Assembly (NCBI RefSeq): GCF_001278805.1
Contig: NZ_CP012602.1
Span: forward strand, 661,001 to 725,000
Origin: Bacillus sp. FJAT-18017
GTDB taxonomy: Bacteria; Bacillota; Bacilli; Bacillales; Cytobacillaceae
Reading direction: 5' to 3'
DNA length: 64,000 nucleotides
Below the pieces are notes generated by a model, which saw nothing but the letters and a program-made list of their open reading frames with translations, was not told the origin of the DNA and searched no databases. Below are positions 293 to 34,860 of the stretch, in pieces. Positions within the stretch are counted from its first letter, which is position 1; the number at the start of each line of letters is the position of its first letter. The translations under genes were made by a program, and so were the position numbers.

Positions 293-355
293 ATCCAGGA
301 AGGATTAACCGCCTTTTTTGTTGAATTCCTTATTGAACAAACGAGGCGGTTAATT
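293..355 (+). repeat. Array repeat copy 1 (left arm cut by IS110)
   Basis: It starts abruptly at ATCCAGGAAGGATTAACC next to the IS110 end, then has the T-rich run, the GTTGAATTCCTTATTGAACA block and a diverged ACGAGGCGG core. The outer half of the terminator stem is missing because the IS110 end abuts it. Confidence 0.85.
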
Positions 356-375
356 GAGATGAGGAGACTACAAAA

Positions 376-1317
376 ATGAAAAAGAAAATGAACAATTTAT
401 TCTTACTTTTAACGATCACCTTTATGGTTGGTTGTACAAACATAGAAGATATATCCAATACAGATGTAGAAACAGGTTCCCAAGAAGTAATCGCAGCCGA
501 AAGAAATAAAAATAATGCAAAAGAAGAAACAGATACTACGGTTTCGGAGGAAACGCCAACCCAACCAATTAATGAACTGTTCTCAGGCTACAAACATATT
601 GAAGTTGATGGCGGTGATTTGTCTGGGCATCGTGAACCAAACATCGTCGTTGACATTGGTTATGGGGACCGTAAATATTGGGCATTTACTAATGAATACG
701 GGCAACTAGTACGTGTCATTGCTGAAGAAATCATCCTTCAGGATGACAGTAACGAACCTGTATTATCGTCTGGCAGATACTATTCTGATGAGGCAAAGGT
801 TCCGGGTGTTGAAAGTGACGCTTTAGATGAAGGACATATCATTGCTGATTCTCTCGGAGGGGTATCAAATGCTTATAATATTACTCCACAGGATAGCATA
901 CTCAATCGACACGGCGATCAAGCTTATATGGAAGATTCAATCAGGAGAGCAGGTGGTGCTACTGACTTTGAAGCAATTATCACGTATCCAAATACAAAAA
1001 CACAGATCCCATCGAGCTATCAATATACTTATACGATAATGGGCAACAAGATCGTTCATACATTTGACAACGTGAACCCTGACGAAGTAAACGAATCACT
1101 CGGTTTAACAGACACTGAACCAGTTGAATCAACTGAACCTGTCGAATCAATAGGATCAAAGGCAAACGGTGAGATTTCTAGCGTTGATACAAACGGCAAT
1201 GGACAAGTGACGATCAAAGAAGCAAAGGCAGCGGGTTTTAAGATGCCAATAACGAGTGATCATTGGTTATACCCATATATGGACGATCGTGATAATGACG
1301 GTTTGGTAGGTGAGTAA
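376..1317 (+). CDS. Secreted lipoprotein with DNA/RNA non-specific endonuclease-like domain and calcium-loop C terminus
   Basis: A 313-residue protein with a lipoprotein signal peptide (hydrophobic stretch then MVGC at about residues 17-20), so it is probably anchored on the outer face of the membrane. The central part (about 70-225) has the pattern DEGHIIADSLGG ... YNITPQ ... LNRHGDQAYME, typical of Endonuclea_NS_2-type DNA/RNA non-specific nucleases; the usual DRGH motif is here DEGH. The C terminus has two acidic loops, DTNGNGQVT and DDRDNDGLVGE, like Excalibur/EF-hand calcium sites. The start is ATG after GAGGAG. It is the first gene after an array repeat. Nuclease activity is inferred from the family pattern; a role in DNA uptake or scavenging is possible but unproven. 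Confidence 0.7.
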   Translation: MKKKMNNLFLLLTITFMVGCTNIEDISNTDVETGSQEVIAAERNKNNAKEETDTTVSEETPTQPINELFSGYKHIEVDGGDLSGHREPNIVVDIGYGDRKYWAFTNEYGQLVRVIAEEIILQDDSNEPVLSSGRYYSDEAKVPGVESDALDEGHIIADSLGGVSNAYNITPQDSILNRHGDQAYMEDSIRRAGGATDFEAIITYPNTKTQIPSSYQYTYTIMGNKIVHTFDNVNPDEVNESLGLTDTEPVESTEPVESIGSKANGEISSVDTNGNGQVTIKEAKAAGFKMPITSDHWLYPYMDDRDNDGLVGE

Positions 1318-1382
1318 GCCCGTAGAGCTTTGAGGCAAAACAAATAAACGAAAGAACGTTTTCCTCCTTGGTATTGGTTTTG

Positions 1383-1424
1383 TGGACCAAATTGCTATGC
1401 CGGCGATTTGGTCCTTTCTTTTTG
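1383..1424 (+). terminator. Rho-independent terminator
   Basis: Stem GGACCAAAT / ATTTGGTCC followed by TTTCTTTTTG, downstream of the nuclease-like lipoprotein gene. It is unrelated in sequence to the array-repeat terminators. The remaining stretch to 1686 holds no gene that I can support. Confidence 0.8.
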
Positions 1425-1686
1425 TAAGACATATATAAACATTATTGCTTTGAAGGAATTACGGACATTTCCACGGCCTTGTCAGGATTACTACAATTCT
1501 ACGTTACTAGTCAACTAGTATAAAAATTATTAGAATAAAATTTTCCCTTATTACACCATCCCTTTCCAATATTTTTTATTCAATAAAAATTTCCAAATCC
1601 TTTTAAAAAATGGGTTTTCTTAGAAAATATGCTGTTATAATGGTTTTGAAAACAAAATATATGAAGATGTTATAAGGGGGAGGATT

Positions 1687-2919
1687 ATGAAGAAGTACTT
1701 TTTAGTATTTATTTGTTCGTGGCTGGTCTTTACCTCAATGAATTTAACTGTTCAGGCACATTCAGGAAGGACCGATTCTAGTGGGGGACATAATTGCAGC
1801 GATAAATCAAAGTCAAAAGGACTTTGCAGCGGGTATCACTATCATAACGGCGGAGGAGATAGCTCAGGCAGTACATCAAGCGGACCGTCTTCATCGACTA
1901 CATCTTCCAGTGATAAGGACTGTGGAGATTTTGCTTCATACGATGAGGTAGTTGCATACTGGAATAAGAAAGGCTATTCAGCTACATATGATCCGGAAAA
2001 TTTAGATGGATGGGGGAACGGGAACGTTGATGACGGAATCCCCTGTGAGCCACCTGGCGGGTATGATTATACGAAAATAAACAACAGCCCAGAACAGGTG
2101 GCCATGATAACCGCTAACAATGACAGGCAAAAAGGCGAAAACGCTGGTTACCCTATAGGCATGGATGACGGGCAAAAGGACGTAGCCTCTAACCCAGCAA
2201 TTTCAAAAGGGTCCGATGCGTATAAAGAGGGATATAAAACGGGCTATGAAAAAGGGTACAGTGCTGGTCAGGTAAAATACAAGACAAAAGAAGAAGCAGC
2301 AACGAAAGCAGGGATTGCTCTTGGACAGAAACAGGATAAGCTGGTCATCCCTAAAACATACACAGCGATTGCAGGTTTAAAAAAGGCATTCGAAGAAGGG
2401 TTCAAAAAGGCTGTCGCCGAACGAGACGCAGCAAAACAGAAGGAATATGAAAAGATTGGCTTTGATGATGGTAAGAAAGATGCCCTGAATGAACCAAAGA
2501 ACGTAAAGGAAAGCTATCTTGCGGCGTACAAGACTGGATATAAAAATGGCCAGGAAGAATTAAAAAAGGAATTCTGGCAACAAGGTTATGATGCTGCTTT
2601 TACTATGTTGTCCTATAAAGACCCTGAGCTTAATCAAGAAAAATATAAAGGCTGGTATAAAGAAGGGTTTCAAGCAAATAAAGAAATTAAGAAAATAGAA
2701 AAAGCAGGATATGAATCCGGACTGGCCGGAGAAGGATATAGCATTCAAAAAAAACACAAAAATGCCGAAGTGATTTATAAGCACTACTATAAAAAAGGTT
2801 TAAAGGAATTTGAAGAACAGAATAGGGAGACAAACCAACAGATGGCCGGAGGGCTGGGAATGATTTTCTTTGGCTGGCTTGCCCGTAGGTTTTATGTAGC
2901 AAGAAAAATGATCTCTTAG
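1687..2919 (+). CDS. Secreted YHYH-domain protein with G-Y repeats and C-terminal membrane segment
   Basis: A 410-residue protein with an N-terminal signal peptide (about 1-24, ending VQAHS). A Cys/His-rich YHYH segment follows (CSDKSKSKGLCSGYHYH, about 37-55), then a Ser/Thr-rich linker and an Excalibur-like acidic stretch (about 115-125). The central 150-370 region is a degenerate repeat of GY/GF-x3-G units rich in Lys and Glu. A short hydrophobic segment near 390-400 may anchor the C terminus. The start is ATG with a GGGGGAGG site. The next gene begins 11 bp downstream, so the two probably form an operon. YHYH domains are common in Bacillus surface proteins but their role is unclear. Confidence 0.6.
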   Translation: MKKYFLVFICSWLVFTSMNLTVQAHSGRTDSSGGHNCSDKSKSKGLCSGYHYHNGGGDSSGSTSSGPSSSTTSSSDKDCGDFASYDEVVAYWNKKGYSATYDPENLDGWGNGNVDDGIPCEPPGGYDYTKINNSPEQVAMITANNDRQKGENAGYPIGMDDGQKDVASNPAISKGSDAYKEGYKTGYEKGYSAGQVKYKTKEEAATKAGIALGQKQDKLVIPKTYTAIAGLKKAFEEGFKKAVAERDAAKQKEYEKIGFDDGKKDALNEPKNVKESYLAAYKTGYKNGQEELKKEFWQQGYDAAFTMLSYKDPELNQEKYKGWYKEGFQANKEIKKIEKAGYESGLAGEGYSIQKKHKNAEVIYKHYYKKGLKEFEEQNRETNQQMAGGLGMIFFGWLARRFYVARKMIS

Positions 2920-2930
2920 GGGGTATTAGA

Positions 2931-3673: not shown

Positions 3674-3744
3674 GGGGGCAGCATTCCTGTAATAAATCAA
3701 GTATGTGAAAAAGTGATCTTAAACAAACGGGTGCTTTCCTAAAA
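3674..3744 (+). repeat. Array repeat copy 2 (alternative left arm)
   Basis: GGGGGCAGCATTCCTGTAAT is followed by a TGTGAAAAAGTGATCTTAAA-type leader and AACAAACGGGTGCTTTCC. The same leader occurs in copies 24, 28 and 30. The usual ATCC hairpin is replaced by the different hairpin at 3756-3793. Confidence 0.7.
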
Positions 3745-3755
3745 TAAGATTATAC

Positions 3756-3793
3756 AAAGAAGGCTTAGAGTTGAAAACTCTAGCCTTCTTGAC
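3756..3793 (+). terminator. Hairpin terminator attached to array repeat copy 2
   Basis: A long stem, AGAAGGCT.AGAGTT / AACTCTAGCCTTCT, with a GAAA loop. Its T-tract is short. It may act on both strands, between the + operon and the convergent AAA gene. Confidence 0.7.
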
Positions 3794-3954
3794 TATGAAA
3801 ATATATGCTGATTTGTTGTGAAGTTTTATGACATTTGCCGTGTGATTAGGGGCTGTAATTTATACTTTATACCCCACAAGTAGACCGGTATTATCTACGA
3901 AGGAATAAAGGTATTTAATTGCATCGTTAAAGATAACAAATAAGGTAGCAAGGC

Positions 3955-5076
3955 TCAAAGATTCATTTTGTGTGAAACAATTTTAGAAGAAATTCTGCTT
4001 TTTACATAATTTTTTATGTTTCTTACATTTGTCATTTCAGACACTTCTTGTTTTAAGGCAAATAGAGTTTGATTTTCATCCAAAATTCTTTTCTCCTGGT
4101 TATCAAGAAGCGTTTGATAAATCCCAATATATTCTCTTTCAACAATTCTAGTTTTGGCACCTTCGTCTAGGTCTGTATACTGAATAAATCCATCAAATCG
4201 AGAATAAATGGCCTCTCCTAAATGAACAAAGATTTCTCTTTCAGTTTGAAAGTTCGTTGTACATATAATAATGGCCTTTTCTAAATTCACCCTATAATTT
4301 TTATCAACAAAAATACCCTCATCAAACATTTGATAGAAAGCACTATAAAGAAGGGGAGGGCATTTATCGAATTCATCAAGTAACACGACATTAGATTCTC
4401 GTTTCAGGAGATCCAAAGCAAGAGAACTTTTGTGAATATTATCTCCAAATAAATAGGATGCAAAATCGCTGGTTTGATGCATAGATAATTGTGTTCTAAA
4501 TAGACCGTTATTTCTTGATATAATGCTTTTAACAAACTTAGCTGTTTCTGTTTTACCTACACCAGCCGGTCCATATAACAGAAGTACAACTGGTTTTTTG
4601 TATTTTGGTTTGGTTAAAGGGTAGAGATAAACCAATAGTCTTTTTAATACATCAGGCTGTCCAATGATAACATCATTGTACTTTTCTTTAATCATCTCCA
4701 AATGCTTATATTTGAACGAAGTATATTTAAATTGGGATACTTTAATTTGTTCCTTCTTAAAGAGCTGCTTAGTAAGTTTTTCAATATTATTAGGTGGGTT
4801 ATGGAAAACAACGTTTGAAAACTTATCTGCAAGAATCCAAACCTTGATAAGAGCCGGTAATGCATCAACATATCCGTCATTTAATAAGGCGAATTCTTCA
4901 GCCCTGCATATCAGCACCTTTCTGCTATCGAAGTCTCTATGCCCTTCACCATTTTCCTTTAGTACATCCAATAATTCTCCTAACGTAACAGGTCTTTCAT
5001 TTGTATGTTCTCTTGTAATTCGTTCAAGAAACTTTTCTGGTCCTTTAACTATATGAATGATTTCACTCACTTGCAT
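3955..5076 (-). CDS. AAA+ ATPase (ClpA/B-like AAA_2 core), partner of the DUF6414-like gene
   Basis: A 373-residue AAA+ protein. An N-terminal 120-140 residues of unknown type are followed by an ATPase core with Walker A GPAGVGKT (about 169-176), Walker B VLLDEF (231-236), a sensor-1 region IIICTTN near 270 and a likely arginine finger in SRFDG. The order resembles the second Clp/Hsp100 AAA module rather than Lon or FtsH. Its start overlaps the end of the upstream gene by 14 bp, so the two are translationally coupled. There is no protease or nuclease domain in this chain. A two-gene ATPase/effector module carried as one unit of the array is compatible with a defence or toxin role, which is inference. 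Confidence 0.65.
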   Translation of the reverse strand: MQVSEIIHIVKGPEKFLERITREHTNERPVTLGELLDVLKENGEGHRDFDSRKVLICRAEEFALLNDGYVDALPALIKVWILADKFSNVVFHNPPNNIEKLTKQLFKKEQIKVSQFKYTSFKYKHLEMIKEKYNDVIIGQPDVLKRLLVYLYPLTKPKYKKPVVLLLYGPAGVGKTETAKFVKSIISRNNGLFRTQLSMHQTSDFASYLFGDNIHKSSLALDLLKRESNVVLLDEFDKCPPLLYSAFYQMFDEGIFVDKNYRVNLEKAIIICTTNFQTEREIFVHLGEAIYSRFDGFIQYTDLDEGAKTRIVEREYIGIYQTLLDNQEKRILDENQTLFALKQEVSEMTNVRNIKNYVKSRISSKIVSHKMNL

Positions 5077-5893
5077 CCACTCCGGCCAACAAAATATCGA
5101 TAATTTCTACCTCATTTGGTGTTTTCAGCTCGGAGTTTAAGGCATCCCCAGCTAAGCGAATCTTTTGCTGTTCAGGTTGTATAACATTAAACTCCTGTAA
5201 ATCTTTTAGTTCTTCTAGAGCGCACTTTCCAACTGGAATGCCGTATAAAGTAAGCTGCATCCTTTGAAAGTCAATTAACTGGTAATTATTTCGTAATCCT
5301 TTAAGGTTAAATCTCACAATCTTTTTCTCTTTACCATTTGAAGCTATCATCTCATAGTAGCCTTTTGCATTCTCCAATATGTTGTCTAAATTAGATACAT
5401 CAAGTGTCGATACATCCACATCCCCAATATCGGAGGCTGAGTTTTTACTTCGACTTTCACCATTAATAACCTGAATCGTTTGTATCTGGGAAGCAAACAA
5501 TCTCAAAAAGGGAGTAAACGTTTTTAGAGATGTTAAGGATTCTGGCGGGATGTTTAATTTGAAATCTTTTAACTCTAATAAATTGGAAGGTGAATCAATT
5601 GATGCAGTAATCTTCTTGAAGGTTGTGAGAATGGTGCCTGAAATCATTTTCTGATGAAGGTATTGATTTGAATCGTCAGTTTTCCCTTCTGCTCTGCCTT
5701 TAAATTTGCCGGCAACTAAATCTAGTATCTCCATCCATTTGGGTAGGCCTATTTGAACAGTTGCTTGAGCACTAGCGGATGTATTGGCTTCTTCTTTAAT
5801 AATTTCAGATTCAGTTTCTTCTATTCTACCCTCATAGTATTGATCTATATAGTCTAAGGCTGAACCTTCATCAAAATATACTACTTTCAGCAT
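5063..5893 (-). CDS. DUF6414-like protein, first gene of an ATPase pair
   Basis: A 276-residue soluble protein without membrane segments or known catalytic motifs. It begins LKVVYFDEGSALDYIDQYYE, followed by a Glu/Ser/Ala-rich linker (about 28-45) and a long alpha/beta region. The N-terminal pattern is what I associate with the DUF6414 family; the assignment is from memory and only moderately sure. The start is ATG with an excellent AAGGAGGAAG site at 6-8 nt. It overlaps the downstream AAA+ gene by 14 bp. It may be the target-sensing or effector subunit regulated by the ATPase. Confidence 0.5.
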   Translation of the reverse strand: MLKVVYFDEGSALDYIDQYYEGRIEETESEIIKEEANTSASAQATVQIGLPKWMEILDLVAGKFKGRAEGKTDDSNQYLHQKMISGTILTTFKKITASIDSPSNLLELKDFKLNIPPESLTSLKTFTPFLRLFASQIQTIQVINGESRSKNSASDIGDVDVSTLDVSNLDNILENAKGYYEMIASNGKEKKIVRFNLKGLRNNYQLIDFQRMQLTLYGIPVGKCALEELKDLQEFNVIQPEQQKIRLAGDALNSELKTPNEVEIIDILLAGVDASE

Positions 5894-6189
5894 AAGGCTT
5901 CCTCCTTCAGGATTTGTACGAGTTTTCGTCTCATACCATTATACATTTTATAAAGTTAAATCATCTATAAAGTCTTTCTTACTAAGAATTTCATCTATTA
6001 GTAAGTAATTTAGACAGTAACCCAGTCTCAAGTAATCTCTATCAAAATAATTATTATTTTATCTAGGGTATCAGAATTATAAAAAGGTTTTGTGGTAATT
6101 ATTAATAAGCAACAATATAGTTGGGGTTATTGAGGCCATACCTGGAATGAGTACAGTAAAAAATCCAAATTCAAATGCTGTGAAAGGGT
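5894..6189. other. Intergenic stretch without a supported gene
   Basis: AT-rich sequence holding the promoter region for the minus-strand DUF6414/AAA pair and leading into array repeat copy 3. A very short reading frame near 6147 (MSTVKNPNSNAVKGYN, then a tail of about 14 codons running into copy 3 before a stop) may be a remnant. I see nothing else. Confidence 0.4.
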
Positions 6190-6272
6190 ATAACAGGTGC
6201 GTTGATCCAGGAAGGATTAACCGCCTTTTTTGTTGAATTCCTTATTGAACAAACGGGGCAGGATAGTTTAAA
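6190..6272 (+). repeat. Array repeat copy 3 (complete)
   Basis: Complete form: GGTGCGTTGATCC, AGGA loop, AGGATTAACCGCC, T6, then GTTGAATTCCTTATTGAACA and AACGGGGCAGGATAGTT. Confidence 0.9.
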
Positions 6273-8598: not shown

Positions 8599-8640
8599 TT
8601 CCATAGGTAACTTGAGTGGTATTAGAGTGTATTGATTTTT

Positions 8641-8702
8641 CACTAACGGGTGCTTTCGTATTATAGAGTTAACCAGTTTTTACTGGTTGCTCTTTTTTTT
8701 AT
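8641..8702 (+). repeat. Array repeat copy 5 (left-arm variant with its own terminator)
   Basis: CACTAACGGGTGCTTTCGTA is followed by the hairpin AACCAGT / ACTGGTT and T8. The GAACAAACGGGGCAGG arm is absent here; the IS110 element follows directly and copy 6 may be its displaced right arm. Confidence 0.75.
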
Positions 8703-8729
8703 AGGACCTATTATTTCAGTAGCCAGGGT

Positions 8730-8895
8730 AGAACGTACGGGTGCGTGGGAGTCAGATCTCGTAACATAAACTGTTCGCCCCCTACTTGTAGAATGATGTT
8801 TGAGGCTGGTTGGGACATATGATCTCGTATAACAAGCGAAGCTATGGAACTACAGGAAGGTATAGGGGTTACTGGTGAGTACATCAAAGGGAGAG
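8730..8895 (+). ncRNA. Candidate bridge RNA region of IS110
   Basis: Non-coding left end directly upstream of the recombinase gene, the place where IS110-group elements encode their bridge RNA. Suggestive strings are GAGGCTGGTTGG, which shares CTGGTT with the right end, and ACAGGAAGG, which shares CAGGAAGG with the array repeat next to the copy-1 junction. The exact RNA ends and loops cannot be fixed by eye. Confidence 0.4.
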
Positions 8896-8902
8896 ATAAT
8901 TA

Positions 8903-10105
8903 TTGAATCCAGTAGTTGGCCTAGATGTGGCCAAAGGGGAAAGTGAAGCTCAGGCATTTCTAGATAAGGACAAGCCATATGGAAAGAGCTTCAGGATACA
9001 ACATATCAAGGAGGATTTAGATACTTTCATCTCTTTTTTGAAAGAGATAGAAAGAAAGACTGGCGTAAGACCAGCAGTAATTCTTGAATCTACAGGGCAT
9101 TACCATACACCAATTATTCAATGTCTGGAGGAGAGTCAATATCTATATATCTTGGTAAACCCCATCATTTCTCATCAGGCCAAGAAAACCAGTCTTAGAA
9201 AGGTAAAGACGGATGCCGTTGATGCATATCAACTTTGTGTTTTGTATTACAAGGAAGAATTTGAGCCTTATAAGAAACGAGGACTAAGGCTACTAAATCT
9301 AAGAACACTATCAAGGCAATACGAAGCAGTTACGAACCTTTACATTCAGGCAAAACTTCAATTCCACACAATTCTTGACCAGGTATTTCCGGAATATAGG
9401 GGAGTCTTTGGAGATTTATTTTCAAAAGTCTCTCTTCAGGTTTTAAAGGAGTTTCCTACATCTGAAGATGTTCTGAGGACTGGTGAAGCAAAGATACTGG
9501 AGCGAATTGTGGGAATGCGTATAAAACGGTCTGAGGGTTGGGCCAGGGAGAGGGCAGCTAAATTAATAGCTTCGGCTGAGCGAAATCCTTTCCAACAAGG
9601 TGTGTATCAAAGTCAGTTGTTCAGTTTGGATATGTATATCTCTATGCTTCTTCAGTACCAAAAACACCTATCCAGTATAGAGGCAGAGATAGATGTCTTG
9701 GCAGAAGAAATTGAAGAATGCAAGATAATCCAATCAATTCCCGGAATAGGAGGAAAAATCGCGGCAACGATCATTTCCGAAATCGGAGAAATTGACCGGT
9801 TTAATCACCCTAAAAAACTTGTGGCTTACGCGGGAGTAGATCCAAGTGTCCATTCATCAGGTAAGTTCACAGCTACTATAAATCATATTACTAAACGAGG
9901 TTCAAGCCGATTACGGCACGCTTTGTATATGGCCGTTTTATGCGGTATAAGAAGCTCCAGGAACAAGAAGCTAAAAGAGTATTATGATCGGAAACGAAAT
10001 GAAGGAAAGCCTTCAAGAGTAGCAATGATAGCCTGTGTAAACAAGCTTTTACACTGGATTTATGCAATCCTAAAAAGGAATGAGCAGTTCCTAGATATGG
10101 CTTAA
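8903..10105 (+). CDS. IS110-family transposase (DEDD recombinase)
   Basis: A 400-residue IS110-family recombinase. The N-terminal RuvC-like DEDD domain begins GLDVAKGE (first Asp near residue 8), with LESTGHY near 61-67 and KTDAVDA near 101-107. The C-terminal Tnp20 domain has IPGIGGKIAATIISEIG and AGVDPSVHSSGKF, where the family's catalytic serine is expected. Length and motifs are normal, so it is probably active. The start is TTG with GGGAG about 10 nt upstream; no better start exists in frame. IS110 enzymes insert circular intermediates at short sites specified by the bridge RNA. The C-terminal 52 codons are duplicated at 1-160. Confidence 0.93.
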   Translation: MNPVVGLDVAKGESEAQAFLDKDKPYGKSFRIQHIKEDLDTFISFLKEIERKTGVRPAVILESTGHYHTPIIQCLEESQYLYILVNPIISHQAKKTSLRKVKTDAVDAYQLCVLYYKEEFEPYKKRGLRLLNLRTLSRQYEAVTNLYIQAKLQFHTILDQVFPEYRGVFGDLFSKVSLQVLKEFPTSEDVLRTGEAKILERIVGMRIKRSEGWARERAAKLIASAERNPFQQGVYQSQLFSLDMYISMLLQYQKHLSSIEAEIDVLAEEIEECKIIQSIPGIGGKIAATIISEIGEIDRFNHPKKLVAYAGVDPSVHSSGKFTATINHITKRGSSRLRHALYMAVLCGIRSSRNKKLKEYYDRKRNEGKPSRVAMIACVNKLLHWIYAILKRNEQFLDMA

Positions 10106-10237
10106 TCAACAAGAAAAAACAGCTAATGAAAAACCTTCCAAACGGTATTTGGAGGGTTATTTGGCGTGCCTTCAAAAGTATAACACGGAAGAACAAATAT
10201 TTTAATAAGAAGTTCTTGACTCCTATTAGCTGGTTTA

Positions 10238-10268
10238 CTTCAAGAATCGGGGCAGGTTAGCTTAACAA
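10238..10268 (+). repeat. Array repeat copy 6 (right arm only, after IS110)
   Basis: CTTCAAGAATCGGGGCAGG then TTAGCTTAACAAGG. The terminator arm is missing, consistent with IS110 insertion inside or beside the repeat. Confidence 0.8.
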
Positions 10269-10371
10269 GGTTTGGTTAAAAAAGTGGTTTAATCGATATG
10301 TAATTAGGGTAATAACCATTGAATAAAAATGGTTGACCACTAACATTGAACATCAATGGGGAGGTAGCACT

Positions 10372-10611
10372 TTGGCTTACTTGTTGGGAAATCTAAAAGC
10401 ATCTTTAGAGCAAACCAAAGAACGTTTAAATCTTCTCAACGAACGTGGTGTTTAAGCATTAAACATTCTTTATCCAGGACTAAATTATGGTGGAATGCTT
10501 TATTATCAGCTTTTAGAATCTTTACCTAAAGAAATCGAACAATTAGAGAAGAGAATTAAGGGAATCGAAAATAAAGAAGTAAAAACCAACCAGCTATCCA
10601 ATGCCATATAA
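10372..10611 (+). pseudogene. Nonsense-mutated copy of the 80-residue coiled-coil protein gene
   Basis: Nearly identical in sequence to the intact gene at 19190-19432, including about 110 bp upstream and the downstream terminator arm. Codon 28 is GAA in the intact copy but TAA here (GTGTTTAAGCA), and one codon is deleted near the 3' end. The TTG start and GGGGAGG site are retained. It is the clearest evidence that a whole gene-plus-repeat unit was copied within the array. Confidence 0.85.
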
Positions 10612-10629
10612 AGTATGGAAATTAAACTA

Positions 10630-10700
10630 ACAGTGCTTTGATCCAAAGAGGGTTAAGGCACTTTTTTGTTGAATTAAAGAACATACGGGGCAGGTGAATT
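10630..10700 (+). repeat. Array repeat copy 7
   Basis: CAGTGCTTTGATCC, AAAG loop, GGTTAAGGCACTTTTTTG, then a diverged AAGAACATACGGGGCAGG. The terminator arm matches copy 21 closely and the right arm does not. Confidence 0.85.
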
Positions 10701-10868: not shown

Positions 10869-10900
10869 TAGAACAAACGGGGCAGTAATGTTGAAGAAGG
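10869..10900 (+). repeat. Array repeat copy 8 (right arm only)
   Basis: TAGAACAAACGGGGCAG then TAATGTTGAAGAAGG. There is no terminator arm. Confidence 0.8.
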
Positions 10901-10957
10901 AAAAGAAAACTTACCATAGAATATATGTACCTAAAGAACAAAGAGGAGATAATTCCA

Positions 10958-11392
10958 ATGGACACTACGGAATTTAAAGAGATAGTGGATAAAATCGTTG
11001 TCTCTAACGGATTGGTAAAAAGAAGAAAATTTTATTATTTAGAGAGTGAAGATTTAACGGTTGTACTTGGTTTACAAAAATCAAGCTATTCTTCAAGCTA
11101 TTACTTTAATTTGGGATATGTAATTAATATCTTAAATGATACACATTACCCTAAATATACTGACGGAAATGTGCGGCTAAGATTTGATTTCGAAATAGAT
11201 GGGAAAACCACTGACATTGTTGATATACAGGATGTGTTAAAAGACCAATTTATTAGTGAATTGGTGAGAAACATCAATCACTATGTATCTTCAATAACAG
11301 GCATTGAGGCTTTAAAAAATCTTATCTTAAAAGAACCTGTTCTATTATACCAAACTACGCTTGCTACAAAACAATACCTTAAAATTGAATAA
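10958..11392 (+). CDS. DUF4304-like protein
   Basis: A 144-residue soluble protein. The order of features (an N-terminal helix, FYYLESEDLTVVLGLQKS and FNLGYVI beta strands, then RLRFDFE and a helical end) resembles the DUF4304 family, which has no known activity. I chose ATG at 10958 because AGGAGAT lies 8 nt upstream; an in-frame ATG at 10925 would put that site inside the gene. It is a single gene between array repeats 8 and 9, with no terminator of its own. Confidence 0.55.
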   Translation: MDTTEFKEIVDKIVVSNGLVKRRKFYYLESEDLTVVLGLQKSSYSSSYYFNLGYVINILNDTHYPKYTDGNVRLRFDFEIDGKTTDIVDIQDVLKDQFISELVRNINHYVSSITGIEALKNLILKEPVLLYQTTLATKQYLKIE

Positions 11393-11430
11393 TTCTTATT
11401 GAACAAACGGGGCAGGTTACTGTAAGAAGG
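11393..11430 (+). repeat. Array repeat copy 9 (right arm only)
   Basis: TTCTTATTGAACAAACGGGG then CAGGTTACTGTAAGAAGG, starting at the stop codon of the previous gene. Confidence 0.85.
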
Positions 11431-11895: not shown

Positions 11896-11930
11896 TGTGG
11901 TAAAGGGTGCTTTCCTTTAAGCAATAAATA
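11896..11930 (+). repeat. Array repeat copy 10 (left-arm variant)
   Basis: TGGTAAAGGGTGCTTTCC followed by TTTAAGCAATAAATACAGC. It is the same GGGTGCTTTCC variant as copy 2, without a clear hairpin or right arm. Confidence 0.6.
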
Positions 11931-11997
11931 CAGCTTGTATCTTAATTGTTCCTGTTTTTTTATCTTTGCTGAAAATAATAAGTTCGGGGGTGATAAA

Positions 11998-12183
11998 ATG
12001 GCAACTGCTAAAATCGGGGACAATATTTTATTTAAGCGTGATGGGGAAAGGTATGAAGGAACTGTTACGGTTGTAAGAGAAAATTCTGTTATTGTTGAGT
12101 ATGGATACAACAAGGAAAAAGATGAACCTATTACAACCATAGTCAATCATAAAAATTATAAAATTAAGAATGCAACTTTGTGA
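11998..12183 (+). CDS. DUF2187 (YkvS-like) small protein
   Basis: A 61-residue protein beginning MATAKIGDNILFKRDGERYE and containing EGTVTVVRENSVIVEYGY, the pattern of DUF2187 small SH3-like proteins of Bacillus. ATG at 11998 has a GGGGGTG site 5 nt upstream. The function of the family is unknown. It stands alone between repeats 10 and 11. Confidence 0.75.
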   Translation: MATAKIGDNILFKRDGERYEGTVTVVRENSVIVEYGYNKEKDEPITTIVNHKNYKIKNATL

Positions 12184-12194
12184 ACAATTGACTT

Positions 12195-12285
12195 AAAGTT
12201 ACGGGTGCGTTGATCCAAGAAGGATTAAGGCACCTTTTTGTTGAACTCTTTATTAAACAAACGGGGCAGGTTAGTTCAACAAGAG
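12195..12285 (+). repeat. Array repeat copy 11 (complete)
   Basis: TTACGGGTGCGTTGATCC, AAGA loop, AGGATTAAGGCACC, T5, GTTGAACTCTTTATTAAACA, AACGGGGCAGGTTAGTTC. Confidence 0.9.
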
Positions 12286-12364
12286 TGTTTATGTAAATTA
12301 GTTCCAAACATAAAAAATTCATTTATAATACAGATAATACCAGTTAAAACAAGGGGTCTTATAG

Positions 12365-13172
12365 ATGGAACTGATCACAAACAAAGTCATATTAATATCT
12401 GTATTCTTATTGGTCGTAACGGCGATAGAAACGTTAGCATATTCAACGAGAATTTCAGGGGCAAGGGTGAAGTTAATTGCTACTGCCTTGTCTTTATTCA
12501 GTACGTTAGTGATTATCTCAAGGTTTTCAACAATGATACAGCAACCCTTGACAGCTAAACTCATCGCAGAAGCTCCTGATACAAATAAACTCCAATTCAT
12601 TGAAGAACAATACAGAATTTTAATCGGTGTCACTACCATAGGTGTTTTACTTGGAATCGTTTTGTTCCCCACTTTTATCAATATTTTCTCAAGAGCAATT
12701 GTTCAGCTGTCCAAAGAGCGTGGTTCATTAGTTTCGCTTTTTGCTAAACAATCCAATTTATCTGGTTTAAAAAAGGTTATTAAATGTGCCAGGATTCCAA
12801 GATGGTCATACCTTGAAGGAATAACTTTCAAGACCATTCCTAAACGTCTTTTTATAATTAATGTTATTATTTCTGCTGTGTTTACCACAGGTGTTCTTTC
12901 CTCAATATATGCTTCAATGTTAGTCCCAAGGGATTATGCCCAGGCTGCATTGATGTCCTCTGGAATAATAAATGGAATTGCGACTATTCTTCTGACCTTA
13001 TTTGTAGATCCGAAAGCCTCCGTTCTGGCTGACAGGGTGGTTAATAACCAAAGCCAATATATCTATTTGTTCTTTGACAATGGTTAGCTCCAAATTGGTG
13101 GGAACAATCGCCGCCCAGTTAATATTTATTCCAGCTGCGTACTATGTAGCTTGGTTCGCTAAGTGGATTTAG
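12365..13172 (+). pseudogene. amj: Lipid II flippase Amj, frameshifted near the C terminus
   Basis: A polytopic membrane protein matching the Amj family (alternative lipid II flippase, about 260-270 residues): it opens ITNKVILISVFLLVVTAIET and contains STRISGARVKLIATALSLFS and VDPKASVLADRVV. The main frame ends early at 13087 after about 240 residues. The missing end continues in the +1 frame as LVGTIAAQLIFIPAAYYVAW with a stop at 13172. A one-base indel near 13060-13085 explains this. Amj supports peptidoglycan export when MurJ is absent. The truncated form loses the last membrane segment and is probably inactive, unless the shift is a sequencing error. Confidence 0.8.
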
Positions 13173-13173
13173 G

Positions 13174-13200
13174 TTTATTAAACAAACGGGGCAGAATACT
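13174..13200 (+). repeat. Array repeat copy 12 (right arm only)
   Basis: TTTATTAAACAAACGGGGCA then GAATACTT, immediately after the shifted stop of the amj remnant. Confidence 0.8.
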
Positions 13201-13300
13201 TCTGATATGTGTTTAATATAAAAATGGATGTTTCATTGTTCAACCTCAGAAGGGAGACCTTGGTTACGTTGGAAACTGAAAATTGGAGGGAGTTATTGAA

Positions 13301-13864
13301 ATGGCTAAATTGATCTATCCTATTAACGTATCTTTGGACGGTTACATGGAGGATGAGCGCGGCAATATCGAGTGGACGATCTCCGATGACGAAGAGTTTG
13401 CGTTCTGGACTGACTTCCAGCGGCCGATTGGCACCTACCTATACGGGCGTCGAATGTACGAGTCGATGGTGTACTGGGAGACGGCGAGCGCCAAAAAAGG
13501 CGATCAACCGGAGGGATTGCGGGAATTTGCGCAGATCTGGCGAGTTGCTGAGAAGATCGTGTATTCCCGGACGCTTCGGGAGGTTTCTAGCGCCAAGACT
13601 AGGATCGAGCGCGAATTCAATCCTGATGTGATTCGGAGGCTGAAAGAGTCTTCAGAAGCCGATATTACGATTGGCGGCCCCGAATTTGCTGGGCAGGCGA
13701 TGAGCGCGGGACTTATCGACGAGTGTCATCTGCTTGTTAATCCGATCGTTTTGGGTGGAGGTAAGCGAGCATTGCCGGACAACCTTCGCAGGCGGTTCGA
13801 GCTGCTCGGTGAGCGCCGCTTCCGAAGCGGTGTTGTTCATCTTCACTACCTCGTGATCGTCTGA
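13301..13864 (+). CDS. RibD C-terminal / dihydrofolate reductase-like family protein
   Basis: A 187-residue soluble protein of the RibD_C family. It starts MAKLIYPINVSLDGYMEDE, contains TYLYGRRMYESMVYW and EADITIGGPEFAGQAM (about 122-137) and ends in a beta strand. These are the NADPH-binding elements of DHFR-like reductases; the substrate is unknown. I chose ATG at 13301 because GGAGGGAG lies 9 nt upstream. Its GC content is visibly higher than that of its neighbours (many GCG, CGG and GGC codons), suggesting recent arrival from another genome. It is the only gene between copies 12 and 13. Confidence 0.85.
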   Translation: MAKLIYPINVSLDGYMEDERGNIEWTISDDEEFAFWTDFQRPIGTYLYGRRMYESMVYWETASAKKGDQPEGLREFAQIWRVAEKIVYSRTLREVSSAKTRIEREFNPDVIRRLKESSEADITIGGPEFAGQAMSAGLIDECHLLVNPIVLGGGKRALPDNLRRRFELLGERRFRSGVVHLHYLVIV

Positions 13865-13958
13865 CCACGACGCTAGCGTGAAATTCAAGAGATACGCTTT
13901 CGAACTTACTAAAATCAAGTGAAATTACGAAAGTGGAAGTTATGAGCGTCTTCCATCT

Positions 13959-14049
13959 TTAAACTACCGGGTGCGTTAATCCAGGAAGGATTAGGCTCCT
14001 TTTTTGTTGAATTCCTTATTGAACAAACGGGGCAGTTTAGTTAAATAAA
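13959..14049 (+). repeat. Array repeat copy 13 (complete)
   Basis: AAACTACCGGGTGCGTTAATCC, here split by eye as CCGGGTGCGTTAATCC, AGGA loop, AGGATTAGGCTCC, T6, GTTGAATTCCTTATTGAACA, AACGGGGCAGTTTAGTT. Confidence 0.9.
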
Positions 14050-14102
14050 GAATTATCAGTTGTATAGTGAATTTATTTATAACTATACACCAGGGGACAA
14101 AT

Positions 14103-14549
14103 ATGGCTGATTATACAAAAGAAATTAGAGAACTTATAGGAACCAGACCATTTATTTTGGTCGGTTCTACTATTCTTGTTAAGAATGAAAGGAACGAGAT
14201 TCTATTACAACATCGTTCTGATACACACGAATGGGGTTTGCCAGGTGGAGCAATGGAAATTGGTGAAAGTTTAGAGGAAACCGCCGAACGTGAACTCTTT
14301 GAGGAAACGGGATTAAAAGCAAAGAGATTTAAGTTTATTGATATTTTGTCAGGGAAAAATCTTTACTTTAAATATCCTAACGGTGATGAAGTTTATAATG
14401 TTATTTGTGTCTATTTGGCACAGGATACAAGTGGTGAGTTAGCTTTGAATGATGGTGAAAGTTTGGGATTAAAATATTTCTCCTTAAAGGAATTACCTTC
14501 ACAACTTGATGAAAGGGCAAAGTTAATTATTGCAAAACAATTGATTTAG
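14103..14549 (+). CDS. Nudix hydrolase
   Basis: A 148-residue Nudix protein with a perfect signature from GGAMEIGESLEETAERE into LFEETGL (about 59-81: G-x5-E-x7-REL-x-EE-x-G-L). The family cleaves nucleoside diphosphates linked to another group, using Mg2+ bound by the REL.EE glutamates; the substrate cannot be told. I chose ATG at 14103 (MADYTKEIRELIG) because CAGGGGA precedes it. It is the only gene between copies 13 and 14. Confidence 0.93.
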   Translation: MADYTKEIRELIGTRPFILVGSTILVKNERNEILLQHRSDTHEWGLPGGAMEIGESLEETAERELFEETGLKAKRFKFIDILSGKNLYFKYPNGDEVYNVICVYLAQDTSGELALNDGESLGLKYFSLKELPSQLDERAKLIIAKQLI

Positions 14550-14565
14550 GTGATCTTGTTCAAGC

Positions 14566-14627
14566 AACGAGTGGCGTTGATTCAAAAAGATTAAGCCATT
14601 TATCTTGAAGTTATTTACTTAACGAAG
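14566..14627 (+). repeat. Array repeat copy 14 (degenerate)
   Basis: AGTGGCGTTGATTC, AAAAA, GATTAAGCCATTTATCTTGA and then TTACTTAACGAAGG. Stem and right arm are both worn. Confidence 0.65.
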
Positions 14628-14690
14628 GATTATCTGAAGAATGGTTTTTAAAGTTTGGTACAGAACTCTATAACTCAAGGGGGGAACTCA

Positions 14691-15023: not shown

Positions 15024-15032
15024 GATTGTTAT

Positions 15033-20433: not shown

Positions 20434-20477
20434 AAAAGAGGCCAGGCACCCTCCTATTGGAGATGGCGCCTGGCCCC
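20434..20477 (-). terminator. Terminator of pepF
   Basis: Stem GGCCAGGC(A/G)CC paired across about 16 nt with GGCGCCTGGCC. On the minus strand it is followed by TCTTTTTAA. It lies 7 bp beyond the pepF stop. Confidence 0.8.
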
Positions 20478-20483
20478 TAATTA

Positions 20484-22301
20484 TTAGCTTAGGATTTGTT
20501 CGATTTCGTTTAGTGCTTGTTCGAAGGCTTTGCAGGCATTGTCGACTGGTTCCGGACTGGTCATGTCGACGCCGGCTTTTTTGAGTACCTCAATTGGGTA
20601 GTCGGAGCTACCGGCTTTCAGAAAGTCGATGTAGCGGTTGACTGCCGGCTGTCCTTCTTCAAGGATTTGCCTGCTTAATGCGGTTGCTGCGCTGTAGCCT
20701 GTCGCATATTGGTAAACATAGTAGTTGTGATAGAAATGCGGAATTCTTGACCACTCGAGGCCGATTTCTTCATCAATGGTAATATCCTGGCCGCCGAAGT
20801 ATTTTTTGTTCAGCTCATAATAATCCTTGGTCAAAGAATCTGCCGTAAGTGTTTCGTTGTTCTGGGACTTCTTGTGGATTTGGTGCTCGAACTCCGCGAA
20901 CATCGTCTGGCGGAATACAGTCGCCCTGAATCCTTCAAGGAAGTGATTGAGCAAGTACAGACGCTTTTGCTCGTCATCAAATGTTTTTAGCAGGTAATCA
21001 TTCAAAAGCGCTTCATTGCAGGTTGATGCGACTTCGGCAACGAAAACGCTGAAATTGGCATACGGATATGGCTGGGTTTTATTTGTATAATATCTATGGA
21101 CCGAGTGTCCGAATTCATGGGCAAGCGTAAACAGGTTGTGCACATTGTTTTGCCAGTTCATCAGGATATACGGATTCGTACGGTAAGCACCCGAAGAATA
21201 CGCCCCGCTCCGCTTCCCTCTGTTTTCGTGGACGTCGACCCATCGGTTATCAAAGCCCTCTTTCAGGATGTTCTGATACTCCTCGCCAAGCGGTGCAAGG
21301 CCCTTCAACACGAGGTCGCGGGCTTCATCGTACGAAATCTCCATCTTGACATCCTTCACAAGCGGAGTATACAAATCATACATATGAAGCTCGTTGACGC
21401 CAAGCACTTTTTTGCGAAGCTTTACATAACGGTGCAGCAAATGCAAATTGTTATTGATTGAATGAACAAGATTGTCATAGACGGTTTCCGGGATATTGTT
21501 CGCGGCCAGCGCGGCTTGACGGGCAGAATCATAGTTGCGGACACGGGCATTGAAGTTGTGCTTCTTCACCTGGCCGCTAAGTGTGCTCGCAAATGTGTTC
21601 CTGAATTTTCCGTACGTATCAAAAACTGCCTTGAACGCGTCATGGCGCACCCTTGCATCCGCGCTCTCAAGGAATCTAGAGTAGCGGCCATGGGTCACTT
21701 CGACCTCTTCCCCGTTTTCATCCTTAATTGGTGGGAACTCCAAGTCCGCGTTATTCAGCATACCGAATGTGTTTGATGACGCAGCCATTACTTCACCGGC
21801 TTCAGCCAGGAGCGCCTCCTTTTCAGCGGATAAAATATGCGGGCGTTGGAGGTTGATTTCTTCTAGGGCATGCTCGTACAGCTTAAGCTCAGGTTTTCCC
21901 TCCAAAAATCCTTTGATTTTTTGCTCATCAATTGAAAGAATTTCGGGCACGATAAAAGCAAGCCGGCTTGCCGCCTGGGAATAAAATGCCTTCATTCTGC
22001 CATCCATTCCTTGATAAAAGGAATTTCCGGTATCCTGGTCGTACCTCAGGTGGGAATATGTATACAAACTGCCAATCCGATCAAGGAGCTGGTCGTGTTC
22101 CTGCAAAGCGGTGTAAAGGCTATCTGCGCTTTCACCAAGTTTTCCGCGATGGGCGCTTACTCCTGGAATAAGCTCTTTCACTTCCTGGAATTCCTTCTCC
22201 CAGTCATCATCGGACGCAAAGAGATCTTCAAGGCGCCACGTATCCTCAACCGGAACCTCGCTTCTTGCAGGTAATTTTTTTACTGCAGTTTCATTCGTCA
22301 T
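20484..22301 (-). CDS. pepF: Oligoendopeptidase F (M3B metallopeptidase)
   Basis: A 605-residue cytoplasmic zinc peptidase of family M3. The active site is HEFGH at about 395-399 (LFTLAHEFGHSVH), with the downstream Glu ligand in the FVAEVASTCNE region. The N-terminal helical domain (DTWRLEDLFASDDDWEKEF) is typical. The length is normal for PepF (about 600). It trims oligopeptides of about 7-17 residues and in Bacillus is linked to peptide turnover. ATG has an AAAGGAGG site. It is a conserved-type gene sitting, on the opposite strand, between array copies 22 and 23, and its GC content and codon use look more like those of the core genome. Confidence 0.95.
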   Translation of the reverse strand: MTNETAVKKLPARSEVPVEDTWRLEDLFASDDDWEKEFQEVKELIPGVSAHRGKLGESADSLYTALQEHDQLLDRIGSLYTYSHLRYDQDTGNSFYQGMDGRMKAFYSQAASRLAFIVPEILSIDEQKIKGFLEGKPELKLYEHALEEINLQRPHILSAEKEALLAEAGEVMAASSNTFGMLNNADLEFPPIKDENGEEVEVTHGRYSRFLESADARVRHDAFKAVFDTYGKFRNTFASTLSGQVKKHNFNARVRNYDSARQAALAANNIPETVYDNLVHSINNNLHLLHRYVKLRKKVLGVNELHMYDLYTPLVKDVKMEISYDEARDLVLKGLAPLGEEYQNILKEGFDNRWVDVHENRGKRSGAYSSGAYRTNPYILMNWQNNVHNLFTLAHEFGHSVHRYYTNKTQPYPYANFSVFVAEVASTCNEALLNDYLLKTFDDEQKRLYLLNHFLEGFRATVFRQTMFAEFEHQIHKKSQNNETLTADSLTKDYYELNKKYFGGQDITIDEEIGLEWSRIPHFYHNYYVYQYATGYSAATALSRQILEEGQPAVNRYIDFLKAGSSDYPIEVLKKAGVDMTSPEPVDNACKAFEQALNEIEQILS

Positions 22302-22726
22302 ATTGATCCTCCTTTCTAGCTATCGTTTTACGAAGCAATACCATTAATTGTATTCTTCTTTCTTTTTGAAAATTCCTTCATTTTTGTAAAAACCTTTTCA
22401 CTTATCGTTCCCTTTTTTGTGCCAAAATCACTCTCTTCCGGGAAAGTACATTCCGTTAAACTGTCGATTTTGCCTATTTAGGAAAATCTTTATAAAATGC
22501 TTCGGCTCCAGTCATCTGTTCTGCCACAGTTTCAGGAAGATACAGTTTCTTTTTAACAGCAAATGTTCCATTTTCCATTGGAGAAAGAATTCTGCATCCC
22601 GTAAGCAATTAGAGGTATTCAGACGCGGCACTATGCAGGGATAGGTCTGCATTCTTTCACTACATATTTTTCTAAAGGGGACGAAATTAACGAACGAATG
22701 AATAAAACACAGTAAAAGACCTATCT
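22302..22726. other. Stretch upstream of pepF without a firm gene
   Basis: It contains the pepF ribosome site and presumably its promoter. A minus-strand frame of 34 codons (22474-22578, ending TVAEQMTGAEAFYKDFPK) looks coding-like but lacks a ribosome site. It could be a small protein or the end of a lost neighbour. I see no RNA gene. Confidence 0.4.
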
Positions 22727-22761
22727 TTATTAAACAAACGGGGCAGGTTAGTAAAAGAAGA
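22727..22761 (+). repeat. Array repeat copy 23 (right arm only)
   Basis: TTTATTAAACAAACGGGGCA then GGTTAGTAAAAGAAG. It lies in + orientation although the two genes that follow are on the minus strand. Confidence 0.85.
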
Positions 22762-23850: not shown

Positions 23851-23956
23851 TTTTGTGAAGAAATGTACTTAAACTATTGGGTGCGTTGATCCAGGAAGGA
23901 TTAACCGCCTATTTTGTTGAATTCCATATTAAACAAACGGGGCAGGATAGTTCAAG
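23851..23956 (+). repeat. Array repeat copy 24 (complete, extended leader)
   Basis: TTTTGTGAAGAAATGTACTT, AAACTATTGGGTGCG, TTGATCC, AGGA loop, AGGATTAACCGCC, GTTGAATTCCATATTAAACA, AACGGGGCAGGATAGTT. The TGTGAA..ACTTAAACTAT leader is shared with copies 28 and 30. Confidence 0.9.
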
Positions 23957-27370: not shown

Positions 27371-27520
27371 TTTCCTTATTCAATTAAATGGGCAACACTC
27401 CTGTAATAACTTTGTGAATAAATATACTTAAACTATAGGGTGCGATAATCCAGGAGGATTACCGCCCTTTTTTGTTGAATTCCTTATTGAACAAACGGGG
27501 CAGGTTAGTGGAATAAGCAG
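27371..27520 (+). repeat. Array repeat copy 28 (worn right arm plus a complete repeat)
   Basis: TTCCTTATTCAATTAAATGG, GCAACACTCCTGTAATAACT, TTGTGAATAAATATACTTAA, ACTATAGGGTGCG, ATAATCC, AGGAGGATTACCGCCC, T6, GTTGAATTCCTTATTGAACA, AACGGGGCAGGTTAGTG. Two right arms are separated by only about 60 bp without a gene. Confidence 0.88.
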
Positions 27521-27862: not shown

Positions 27863-27949
27863 TCTAATAGGTGCTTTGATCCAGAAGGATTAAGGCACCT
27901 TTTTGTTCAATTCCTTATTAAGCAAACGGGGCAGATTAGTTGAATAAAG
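27863..27949 (+). repeat. Array repeat copy 29 (complete)
   Basis: CTAATAGGTGCTTTGATCC, AGA loop, AGGATTAAGGCACC, T5, GTTCAATTCCTTATTAAGCA, AACGGGGCAGATTAGTTG. Confidence 0.9.
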
Positions 27950-33765: not shown

Positions 33766-33803
33766 AAGGCCTTCATTTCATTATGCAAGGCCTTTAATTT
33801 TTT
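33766..33803 (+). terminator. Rho-independent terminator
   Basis: AAGGCCTT ... AAGGCCTTTAATTTTTTG, a stem of AAGGCCTT (with an alternative internal pairing TTCAT/ATGCAA) followed by T-rich sequence after the CWB2 gene. Confidence 0.7.
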
Positions 33804-33956
33804 GTTTTGTAACCTGGCATTAATCTTTGGGGAATAACAGAGTAATAACAATAGATTGTTTTCTTTCTTGAAAATAGCTAGCTTTAGATAGTTATTTCTG
33901 CAAACAATTTTCTGTAGTAAAATAAATCTAGTATTTATTTATAAAGGAGCAAAAAT

Positions 33957-34340
33957 ATGAAGTTTTTTAAAGGGTTTTTAGGAGCTCTATTAACTGTTAT
34001 AGCGGTATTATTTATAGAAAATATATTATTAAATCCACATAAAACCAGTTCCTCCGAGATGTTCAACTACGTAGTTAAAGATTTTTTTAAGGAGTTACCA
34101 GCCCTTATTGTTTTTGGAGGGTTTTATTATATTATGCCAGGTTGTTTGCTAGGAGAGCTATTATATCGCAAATACATAAAATCGAAACCCTTTTTAACAG
34201 GACTTATTTTATTTGTTTTTTTAGGTGTAGGTTACGGAACCCTATTTACTGGTTTTGATTTAAGTGAATCTTTAATATTCTTATATACAATTACGGGTTC
34301 TATAGTCTTTTATTTAGTTAGAAGAGATTATAAAAAATAG
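33957..34340 (+). CDS. Membrane protein of unknown function
   Basis: A 127-residue protein with four membrane segments (about 5-23, 46-70, 79-97 and 102-118) and a basic end (RRDYKK). A short extracytoplasmic loop lies at about 26-44. ATG has an AAAGGAGC site. The topology resembles the small membrane protein at 28126-28575 but the sequences are not obviously related. No function is assignable. Confidence 0.5.
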   Translation: MKFFKGFLGALLTVIAVLFIENILLNPHKTSSSEMFNYVVKDFFKELPALIVFGGFYYIMPGCLLGELLYRKYIKSKPFLTGLILFVFLGVGYGTLFTGFDLSESLIFLYTITGSIVFYLVRRDYKK

Positions 34341-34459
34341 AAAAATTTTATTCGTACTTTGAAACAGGAATCGGAGAAGAACTGTTGATAACCGGGTCAA
34401 AATCGAAACGTTAATTGAATTTCTATTCGAAAAAGAAATTATTTCTAAAGAAGAGCTTA

Positions 34460-34798
34460 CAAGTAAGGTATAAAGATAATTTAAATCGGAACGTGCCTTT
34501 ATCTTATGAATTAGACGGGAATCTCAAGCAGGACGACAAGTTCAAATACGAGTACAACGACCTTGGTGGTCAGACGAGGGTAATTACCTTAGCCCGCACT
34601 AAAATAGCCAAATACGAGTACGACGAGGAAGGTCTAAGGACGAGGATAATTGTAGGGACAAAGACGTATGAGTATTATTATAACGGTGAAGAAAATAACC
34701 TGGCATTAGAGGTCACGAAGGAAAACGGACAGATTCAAAGATTTCGTTATTGCCAATGGGACGAAAACGGAAAAGCAGTTGGAGTAATATTAAATTAA
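34460..34798 (+). pseudogene. RHS / YD-repeat protein fragment
   Basis: A fragment of about 110 codons with the YD-repeat pattern of RHS and wall-associated proteins: LSYELDGNLKQDD, FKYEYNDLGGQTRV, KYEYDEEGLRTRIIVGTKTY and RFRYCQWDENGKAVGVI. Full RHS proteins run to well over a thousand residues, so this is a remnant. The upstream stretch (IETLIEFLFEKEIISKEELT, ending at 34472 in another frame) is the tail of a different decayed small gene. It is the last coding piece before repeat copy 31. Confidence 0.7.
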
Positions 34799-34804
34799 TA
34801 TTTA

Positions 34805-34860
34805 TTGTTAAACTAATGGGGTGCGTTGATCCAGCAGGATTAGCCACCTTTTTCTGTGAA
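34805..34860 (+). repeat. Array repeat copy 31 (terminator arm, last of the array)
   Basis: GTTAAACTAATGGGGTGCG, TTGATCC, AGC loop, AGGATTAGCCACC, T5. There is no GAACAAACGGGGCAGG arm. No further copies are seen downstream. Confidence 0.85.

Follow-up and report, generated by a model that had tools for sequence, protein, structure and literature searches.

The stretch of DNA considered here, called the window below, comprises the 64,000 nucleotides at positions 661001-725000 of the single 5.27 Mb contig of the Bacillus sp. FJAT-18017 genome (G000:C1), and in it gene cassettes that can be exchanged lie in a row, with a short recombination site at each join. This row is best explained as belonging to a cassette-array system that has at least three linked parts in the source genome, and in which short dyad-symmetric sites would be recombined site-specifically by a linked tyrosine recombinase, and gene and terminator modules would thereby be reassorted, a reading to which, from sequence, we assign a probability of about 0.82. 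The evidence that carries it consists of the sites and their two spacer types, the mobility of whole units, the position of the crossover, the matching of spacer types, and both the linkage and the co-occurrence of the recombinase with the sites.

A sequence-only reading of the window had reported at least 31 copies or remnants of a repeat in one orientation, and the repeat is real. The core GGGTGCGTTGATCC is found 17 times in the window (at most three mismatches, both strands) against 2.1 expected, and the core TTGAACAAACGGGGCAGG 23 times, on the + strand only, against 0.08 expected, none of 100 shuffles giving as many as 23; both cores belong to a single kind of site that occurs with either of two spacers. 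With a weight matrix trained on the source genome, 40 sites are scored in the window, somewhat more than the 31 first counted, spanning 342 to 34818 and lying on the + strand in 39 cases, the single – call at 15501 being possibly a misread near-palindromic site. In the whole genome the exact 14-mer of the core occurs 28 times (13 on +, 15 on –; none in the reversed sequence), and 27 of these copies fall into three clusters, at 0.67 Mb (+), 4.007 Mb (–) and 4.08-4.13 Mb (–). Among the 28 window units of at least 180 nt, 13 hold one open reading frame (ORF) of at least 100 aa, six hold two, two hold three or four and seven none, overlapping antisense ORFs having been removed by hand. That the repeat never lies inside an intact gene, as had been claimed, holds as far as can be told: only two of the 40 junctions, at 12262 and 18246, fall within mechanically called ORFs of at least 100 aa (12238-12558 and 18216-19031), and the second of these ORFs has its likely start at an ATG further down.

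Each junction is a dyad of the form CTTATTGAACTAAC-spacer-GTTAGTTGAAGAAG, in which the spacer is either GGGGCAG (G sites) or GGGTGC (T sites). In the source genome and its relatives the consensus is CTTATTgAACTAAC-GGGGCAG-GTTAGTTgAAgAAG for 594 G sites and TTcTTaAACTAAC-GGGTGC-gTTAgTTcAAGAA for 584 T sites; the best dyad axis scores 5.2 for G sites (next 1.7) and 2.9 for T sites (next 0.95), and in both cases it is centred on the spacer, of 7 and 6 bp, respectively. Gene units usually start at a G site and end at a T site, and the T-to-G units that follow are usually either terminators of about 60 nt (233 of 318 measure 40-120 nt) or units of about 965 nt carrying a 279-aa XerD-like recombinase. 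A TTTT run after position 20 is present in 196 of the 219 T-to-G units of 45-80 nt, and a hairpin fold is frequent (z-scores from mononucleotide shuffles of the first 120 of the 219). The terminator units vary in sequence between species, so that terminator function, rather than one sequence, is what is conserved. Exceptions to the alternation are 156 G-to-G and 121 T-to-T units, in some of which a degenerate site is hidden. The unity of the two cores, the dyad and the terminator between the cores had escaped the sequence-only reading.

Mobility was studied on 1269 units cut at the junctions, 882 of them of 180-4000 nt, by means of pairs alike over their full length, which were preferred to plain alignment-end statistics since the latter include bare repeats of 90-110 nt. 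Pairs whose alignment covers the whole unit, to within 30 nt of the junction at either end, number 137, against 2-7 when all junctions are shifted. Integrase units account for 98 of them; the remaining 39 pairs involve 60 units in 27 families, where controls with boundaries shifted by 150-500 nt yield 0-2. Neither neighbour matches in 132 of the 137 pairs, one side matches in two and the neighbours match, as far as they could be compared, in three; the possibility left by the sequence-only reading that relatives share the same genes in the same order, as expected beside an ordinary dispersed repeat, is thus contradicted, and its proposal of a cassette array, with units moving whole and breakpoints in the repeat, is borne out. 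As an example, a 2.7-kb unit of the 4.1 Mb array shows 95.0-95.7% identity to units in N. niacini, G019 and G096.

The breakpoints can be placed precisely. In pairs sharing a unit on one side only, identity drops to background within the spacer, for both site types and on both sides (four sets of 33-37 pairs each); in the cases followed to base resolution (L116/L127, L118/L119) the common stretch begins or ends at the spacer, and across it nothing is alike, and L103 and L113 have 6.2 kb in common at 99.2% with sites at both ends. Position +7 tracks the downstream unit (0.75 against a background of 0.46) and not the upstream one (0.33 against 0.40). Furthermore, the two members of a pair nearly always have the same spacer type: where the left unit is the common one there are 35 TT, 35 GG and 5 GT pairs, where it is the right unit 42 TT, 40 GG and 2 GT, and overall 77 TT, 75 GG and 7 GT, that is, 152 matched among 159 typed pairs; a further 17, 19 and 36 pairs, respectively, include an untyped member. 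This is the pattern expected of a tyrosine recombinase that needs an identical overlap.

The absence of a visible integrase, noted in the sequence-only reading, is true of the window only, and a tyrosine recombinase gene lies in a second array of the same genome (G000:C1:4086242-4087081, + strand, 279 aa), within the 4.08-4.13 Mb cluster, antisense to the array and with a site on each side. Six Phage_integrase matches are present in the source genome, and two of the others, which outscore this one, are taken as the putative XerC and XerD; no sites were found within about 1.5 kb of the five other tyrosine recombinases, these two among them. The protein scores 212 with the XerA_Arch profile (cut-off 220), 209 with XerD (330) and 208 with XerC (335), all below the curated NCBIfam cut-offs. 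Its closest solved structures are XerD (1a0p, 125 bits) and an archaeal XerC-like protein (4a8e, 121 bits), and in the alignment to XerD all six positions that we take to be catalytic match. At E 1e-60 the database contains 901 relatives, and the 120 of them that were listed carry generic names in their source records (XerD, tyrosine-type recombinase, one ‘integron integrase’); the 50 matches in phage records are all below 60% identity.

Genome contigs scanned with the protein contain 351 relatives; the 80 best were retained, and they make up 78 loci assigned to Bacillaceae and Planococcaceae from their record titles, a few of which name other groups and are perhaps mislabelled. These loci, fetched by the protein, all carry sites: 990 of 1037 lie on the strand opposite to the gene and 47 on the same strand, against four sites in the reversed-sequence control (matrix threshold 12), and a strict site pattern gives 116 matches, 114 of them on the opposite strand, against none in the control. 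In many loci the recombinase unit extends from a G-like junction, roughly 80 nt ahead of the start codon, to a T junction some 50-60 nt beyond the stop codon. In the source genome the gene has sites and cassettes on both sides, and in the relatives it forms a T-to-G unit with varied neighbours. Neobacillus mesonae has three copies (964, 964 and 963 nt, 97.1-98.8% identity) with differing neighbours, which indicates that the integrase is itself a cassette. In many family genomes broken copies or pieces of the gene are common beside full-length ones, and so it seems to be often gained and lost. Inspection by eye also reveals a conserved stretch, GGAATTATTGCC on the array strand, about 40-60 nt upstream of the start in many of the loci L080-L157, between start codon and site, which might be an operator of the gene.

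The recombinase family tracks the site across Bacillaceae and Planococcaceae, as the sequence-only reading had suggested looking for. Site counts per genome are minimum values, the best 31 candidates having been scored in the family set and the best 24 in the class set. Among 193 genomes of the family, the recombinase is present at E 1e-60 in 85 and at least one site at E 1e-4 in 176; the median is at least 24 sites per genome with the recombinase and at least 6 without, at least ten sites occur in 69 of the 85 genomes that have it and in 42 of the 108 that lack it (p 2e-9), and genomes with no site number 0 of 85 against 17 of 108. Among 250 genomes of the class, the recombinase is found in 11 and a site in 45, the recombinase being present in all six genomes with at least ten sites against 5 of 244 others (Fisher p 1.4e-9). 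Plasmid records matching the recombinase at E 1e-30 number 47, seven of them at 60-80% identity; around three of these seven, sites lie on the opposite and same strand in numbers of 9 and 1 in Sporosarcina psychrophila and 6 and 3 in an ‘Arthrobacter citreus’ record, and the Peribacillus simplex plasmid, with 2 and 4, does not follow the strand rule. In closed genomes, 22 of the 26 listed array clusters away from the terminus are co-directional with replication (grouped by eye, two genome lengths rounded, 7 clusters near the terminus left out), which may only mirror the bias in gene orientation.

These observations suggest the following mechanism. The 279-aa XerC/XerD-like recombinase, supplied from its own cassette in another array, would recombine the short double-stranded dyads at every junction, with strand exchange within the 6-7 bp spacer, and partners would need the same spacer, G with G and T with T. 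Exchange between two G sites would excise a gene together with its terminator as a circle able to re-enter at any G site, and exchange between two T sites would do the same for a terminator, or the integrase, together with a gene, with re-entry at any T site. Since direct repeats of the same type would allow excision and re-entry, genes and terminators would reassort with each gene keeping a terminator behind it, and the asymmetric spacer would preserve orientation. We infer the recombinase as catalyst, the circular intermediate and a logic like that of recombinase-mediated cassette exchange (RMCE) from the arrangement of the sites and units.

Several findings weigh against this reading. The chief fact opposing a strict link is the presence of sites in recombinase-free genomes: the 42 of 108 family genomes that lack the recombinase at E 1e-60 and have at least ten sites include G017 and G018, with dense arrays, and such site-rich genomes could hold remnant arrays or use another enzyme, such as the host Xer. 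Conversely, G396 has a 65% identical recombinase and no above-threshold site, and four genomes with a 50-55% identical recombinase have 0-2 sites each. A matrix site within 150 nt was found from the start of the gene in 40 and from its stop in 57 of the 78 loci; 7 of the 78 reading frames contain a stop, and 35 failed the strict catalytic-motif patterns, which are narrow, or held a stop, against 43 that passed; no weight was placed on this motif check. Some breakpoint pairs may be insertion sequence (IS) or intron insertions, and comparison of near-identical genomes revealed no cassette that had been gained or lost.

Among other explanations, it is improbable that host XerC/XerD work the array, as has been proposed for the pdif modules of Acinetobacter, the linked recombinase being only a frequent passenger cassette. 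The sites are indeed Xer-like in having two arms separated by a spacer of 6-7 bp, some genomes that lack the recombinase have dense arrays all the same, and Xer modules of genes between such short sites are published (in the part of PMC7399989 consulted). Yet the orientation of the recombinase unit among the sites is invariant in the 78 loci, and at least ten sites coincide with the recombinase across the class. Furthermore, the arms of the array sites are symmetric, as suits a homomeric enzyme, and those of XerC and XerD differ. Unlike the pdif modules, the Bacillus system is linked to a recombinase of its own, its sites are in direct orientation and fall into two spacer classes, and its arrays are long and chromosomal; pdif modules are bounded by inversely oriented sites, according to a reference title in PMC7399989, and here 39 of 40 window sites and 990 of 1037 sites near integrases lie on one strand. 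The likeness to XerC, XerD, XerH and XerA is that of closest solved relatives, but the array recombinase is not a dimer-resolution system. A shuffling of the genes by homologous recombination between dispersed copies of the repeat, which would then be a terminator-bearing element lacking any recombination system of its own, is very unlikely. At about 100 bp in the source genome the repeat could serve this purpose, and roughly 10% of the repeats, not an exact count, are single or in small groups elsewhere; breakpoints should then spread over the repeat, yet with either type of site they lie within the spacer of 6-7 bp, and exchange also occurs where only about 40 bp of site are common and the terminators are unrelated. 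Nor are the copies scattered beside conserved genes, as repetitive extragenic palindromes or miniature inverted-repeat elements would be: they cluster, and the units they bound move.

We see equally little prospect for a true integron, or a cluster of attC sites lacking an integron integrase (CALIN), with a divergent attC family and folded single-strand recombination. The array does resemble chromosomal (sedentary) integrons in its long same-direction rows of mobile, mostly single and unrelated genes, in its antisense recombinase gene, in cassettes that different species have in common but not in the same order, and in the use of its sites by insertion sequences and group II introns, as at attC (PMC11187229 in part, for the insertion sequences). 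However, the recombinase lacks the IntI-type extra segment of the catalytic domain: integron-integrase profile TIGR02249 gives 99.3 bits against a cut-off of 265, in two separate stretches that skip residues ~179-233, and IntI4 from PDB aligns only at residues 200-267. That segment is described as essential, though not fully conserved, in the part of PMC8138268 consulted. The sites are short dyads of double-stranded type, and no Rfam match was found in the window. The boxes of attC are RYYYAAC and GTTRRRY, and the consensus arms AACTAAC and GTTAGTT are each one position off. The crossover lies in the spacer, upstream of the G^TT point of the R' box, and the +7 base moves with the downstream unit; there are two spacer classes, and terminators are separate modules with two breakpoints each, at T and G. 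Finally, the integrase does not stand with attI at one array end but is itself a cassette, flanked by others on either side. The sequence-only reading was right that this is no classical integron.

Two further systems are worth comparing with the recombinase-linked array. RMCE with heterospecific lox or FRT sites is a laboratory technique in which arms are the same, spacers differ and recombination occurs only within a spacer class; the Bacillus system would be a natural, repeated version. GInt islands are likewise tyrosine recombinase elements with varied cargo, but need a four-gene operon and occur as single islands (PMC5385486, in the part consulted).

Mobile elements insert at the sites. 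An IS110 element occupies a G site of G048 (C2, L217) that is empty in G047, and this extra 1.6 kb was therefore rejected as a cassette gain; the second difference between these genomes lies away from any site and is, by ORF reading, an IS21-type insertion. By eye, the IS110 end motif follows an obvious site arm in 11 of 13 occurrences; besides G048, IS110 adjoins site arms in the window (8903-10105, ~288 and ~10233) and at L080, L096, L114, L125, L136, L149, L191, L219 and L220. Two direct copies of about 1.6 kb with IS110, at G000:C1:659690-661301 and window 8636-10246, are 99% identical. A group II intron (RF02005, 159 bits) at L104:4849-5496 lies in a T site intact in the near-identical L110, and this pair was discarded as a recombination break. 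An A-B versus A-X-B arrangement at the GNAT cassette in G019 was also set aside as suggestive only, the left units being ~78-81% alike. Group II introns also insert at attC. At the array sites mobile elements behave as they do at attC, and the IS110 element resembles those IS1111 elements that target attC (PMC11187229, in part).

The features of the array in the window are the following (window coordinates; all units on the + strand of the array; boundaries from matrix sites and domains from Pfam unless stated):
322-363, first window site, G-type with spacer GAGGCGG, junction after 342, matrix score 35.8
3729-6194, unit with AAA ATPase and DUF6414 genes, both on –
6195-6254, short T-to-G unit with terminator hairpin and T run (matrix sites, fold)
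8648-10248, unit split by an IS110-family insertion (transposase 8903-10105) adjoining the site arm at ~10233 (Pfam, IS end motif)
10249-10686, small cassette, ~91% identity to 19067-19512 over 478 nt (alignment)
10879-11408, DUF4304 cassette
11905-12202, DUF2187 cassette
12203-12262, T-to-G terminator unit
12263-13187, Amj (alternate lipid II flippase) cassette
13188-13968, RibD_C cassette, 781 nt, 97.4% identity to a differently flanked unit of the 4.08 Mb array; also in the relative G017 (L192)
13969-14028, terminator unit common to both RibD cassette copies
14029-15041, NUDIX and HIT genes
16149-18246, ECF sigma factor and DUF4871 protein
18247-19066, DUF5694 cassette
19513-20194, GNAT cassette, 93.7% identity to a 4.007 Mb unit with other neighbours
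20195-20254, T-to-G terminator unit
20255-22739, Peptidase M3 unit, gene on –; 97.0-98.5% identity over ~2.2 kb in two sister species
23879-23938, T-to-G terminator unit
27438-27496, T-to-G terminator unit
27869-27927, T-to-G terminator unit
34799-34840, last array site, T-type, junction after 34818, matrix score 22.2

The gene for Amj, an alternate to MurJ, is carried as a cassette (12365-13087). Just past the array, at 35034-42915, an IS110 transposase fragment precedes a Tn7-like element, whose genes carry TniQ, TnsA-like/rve/Mu-C and TniQ domains.

No published description of the array system appeared among the titles and abstracts retrieved by full-text searches of a literature that has preprints and most subscription journals outside it, and the novelty of the system is therefore provisional. 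The system is a Gram-positive counterpart of integrons built from different parts. With somewhat less confidence than in the mechanism itself, we consider it probable that it represents a widespread mode of gene capture in Bacillaceae and Planococcaceae, independent of integrons, with a self-mobile recombinase cassette, two incompatible site classes, a natural RMCE, and separate reassortment of genes and terminators in which direction and insulation are kept. Complete integrons are reported to be almost absent from Firmicutes, with one in Limnochorda and a few CALIN (in the part of PMC9024848 consulted). If the present reading is true, the near-absence of true integrons from these bacteria would be explained, their niche being filled by an array system that gives an integron-like outcome in a large part of the Firmicutes, on chromosomes and large plasmids. 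It would also open up a hidden accessory gene pool for study, allow a test of array ordering by spacer identity and provide a new orthogonal pair of recombination sites for a Gram-positive host.

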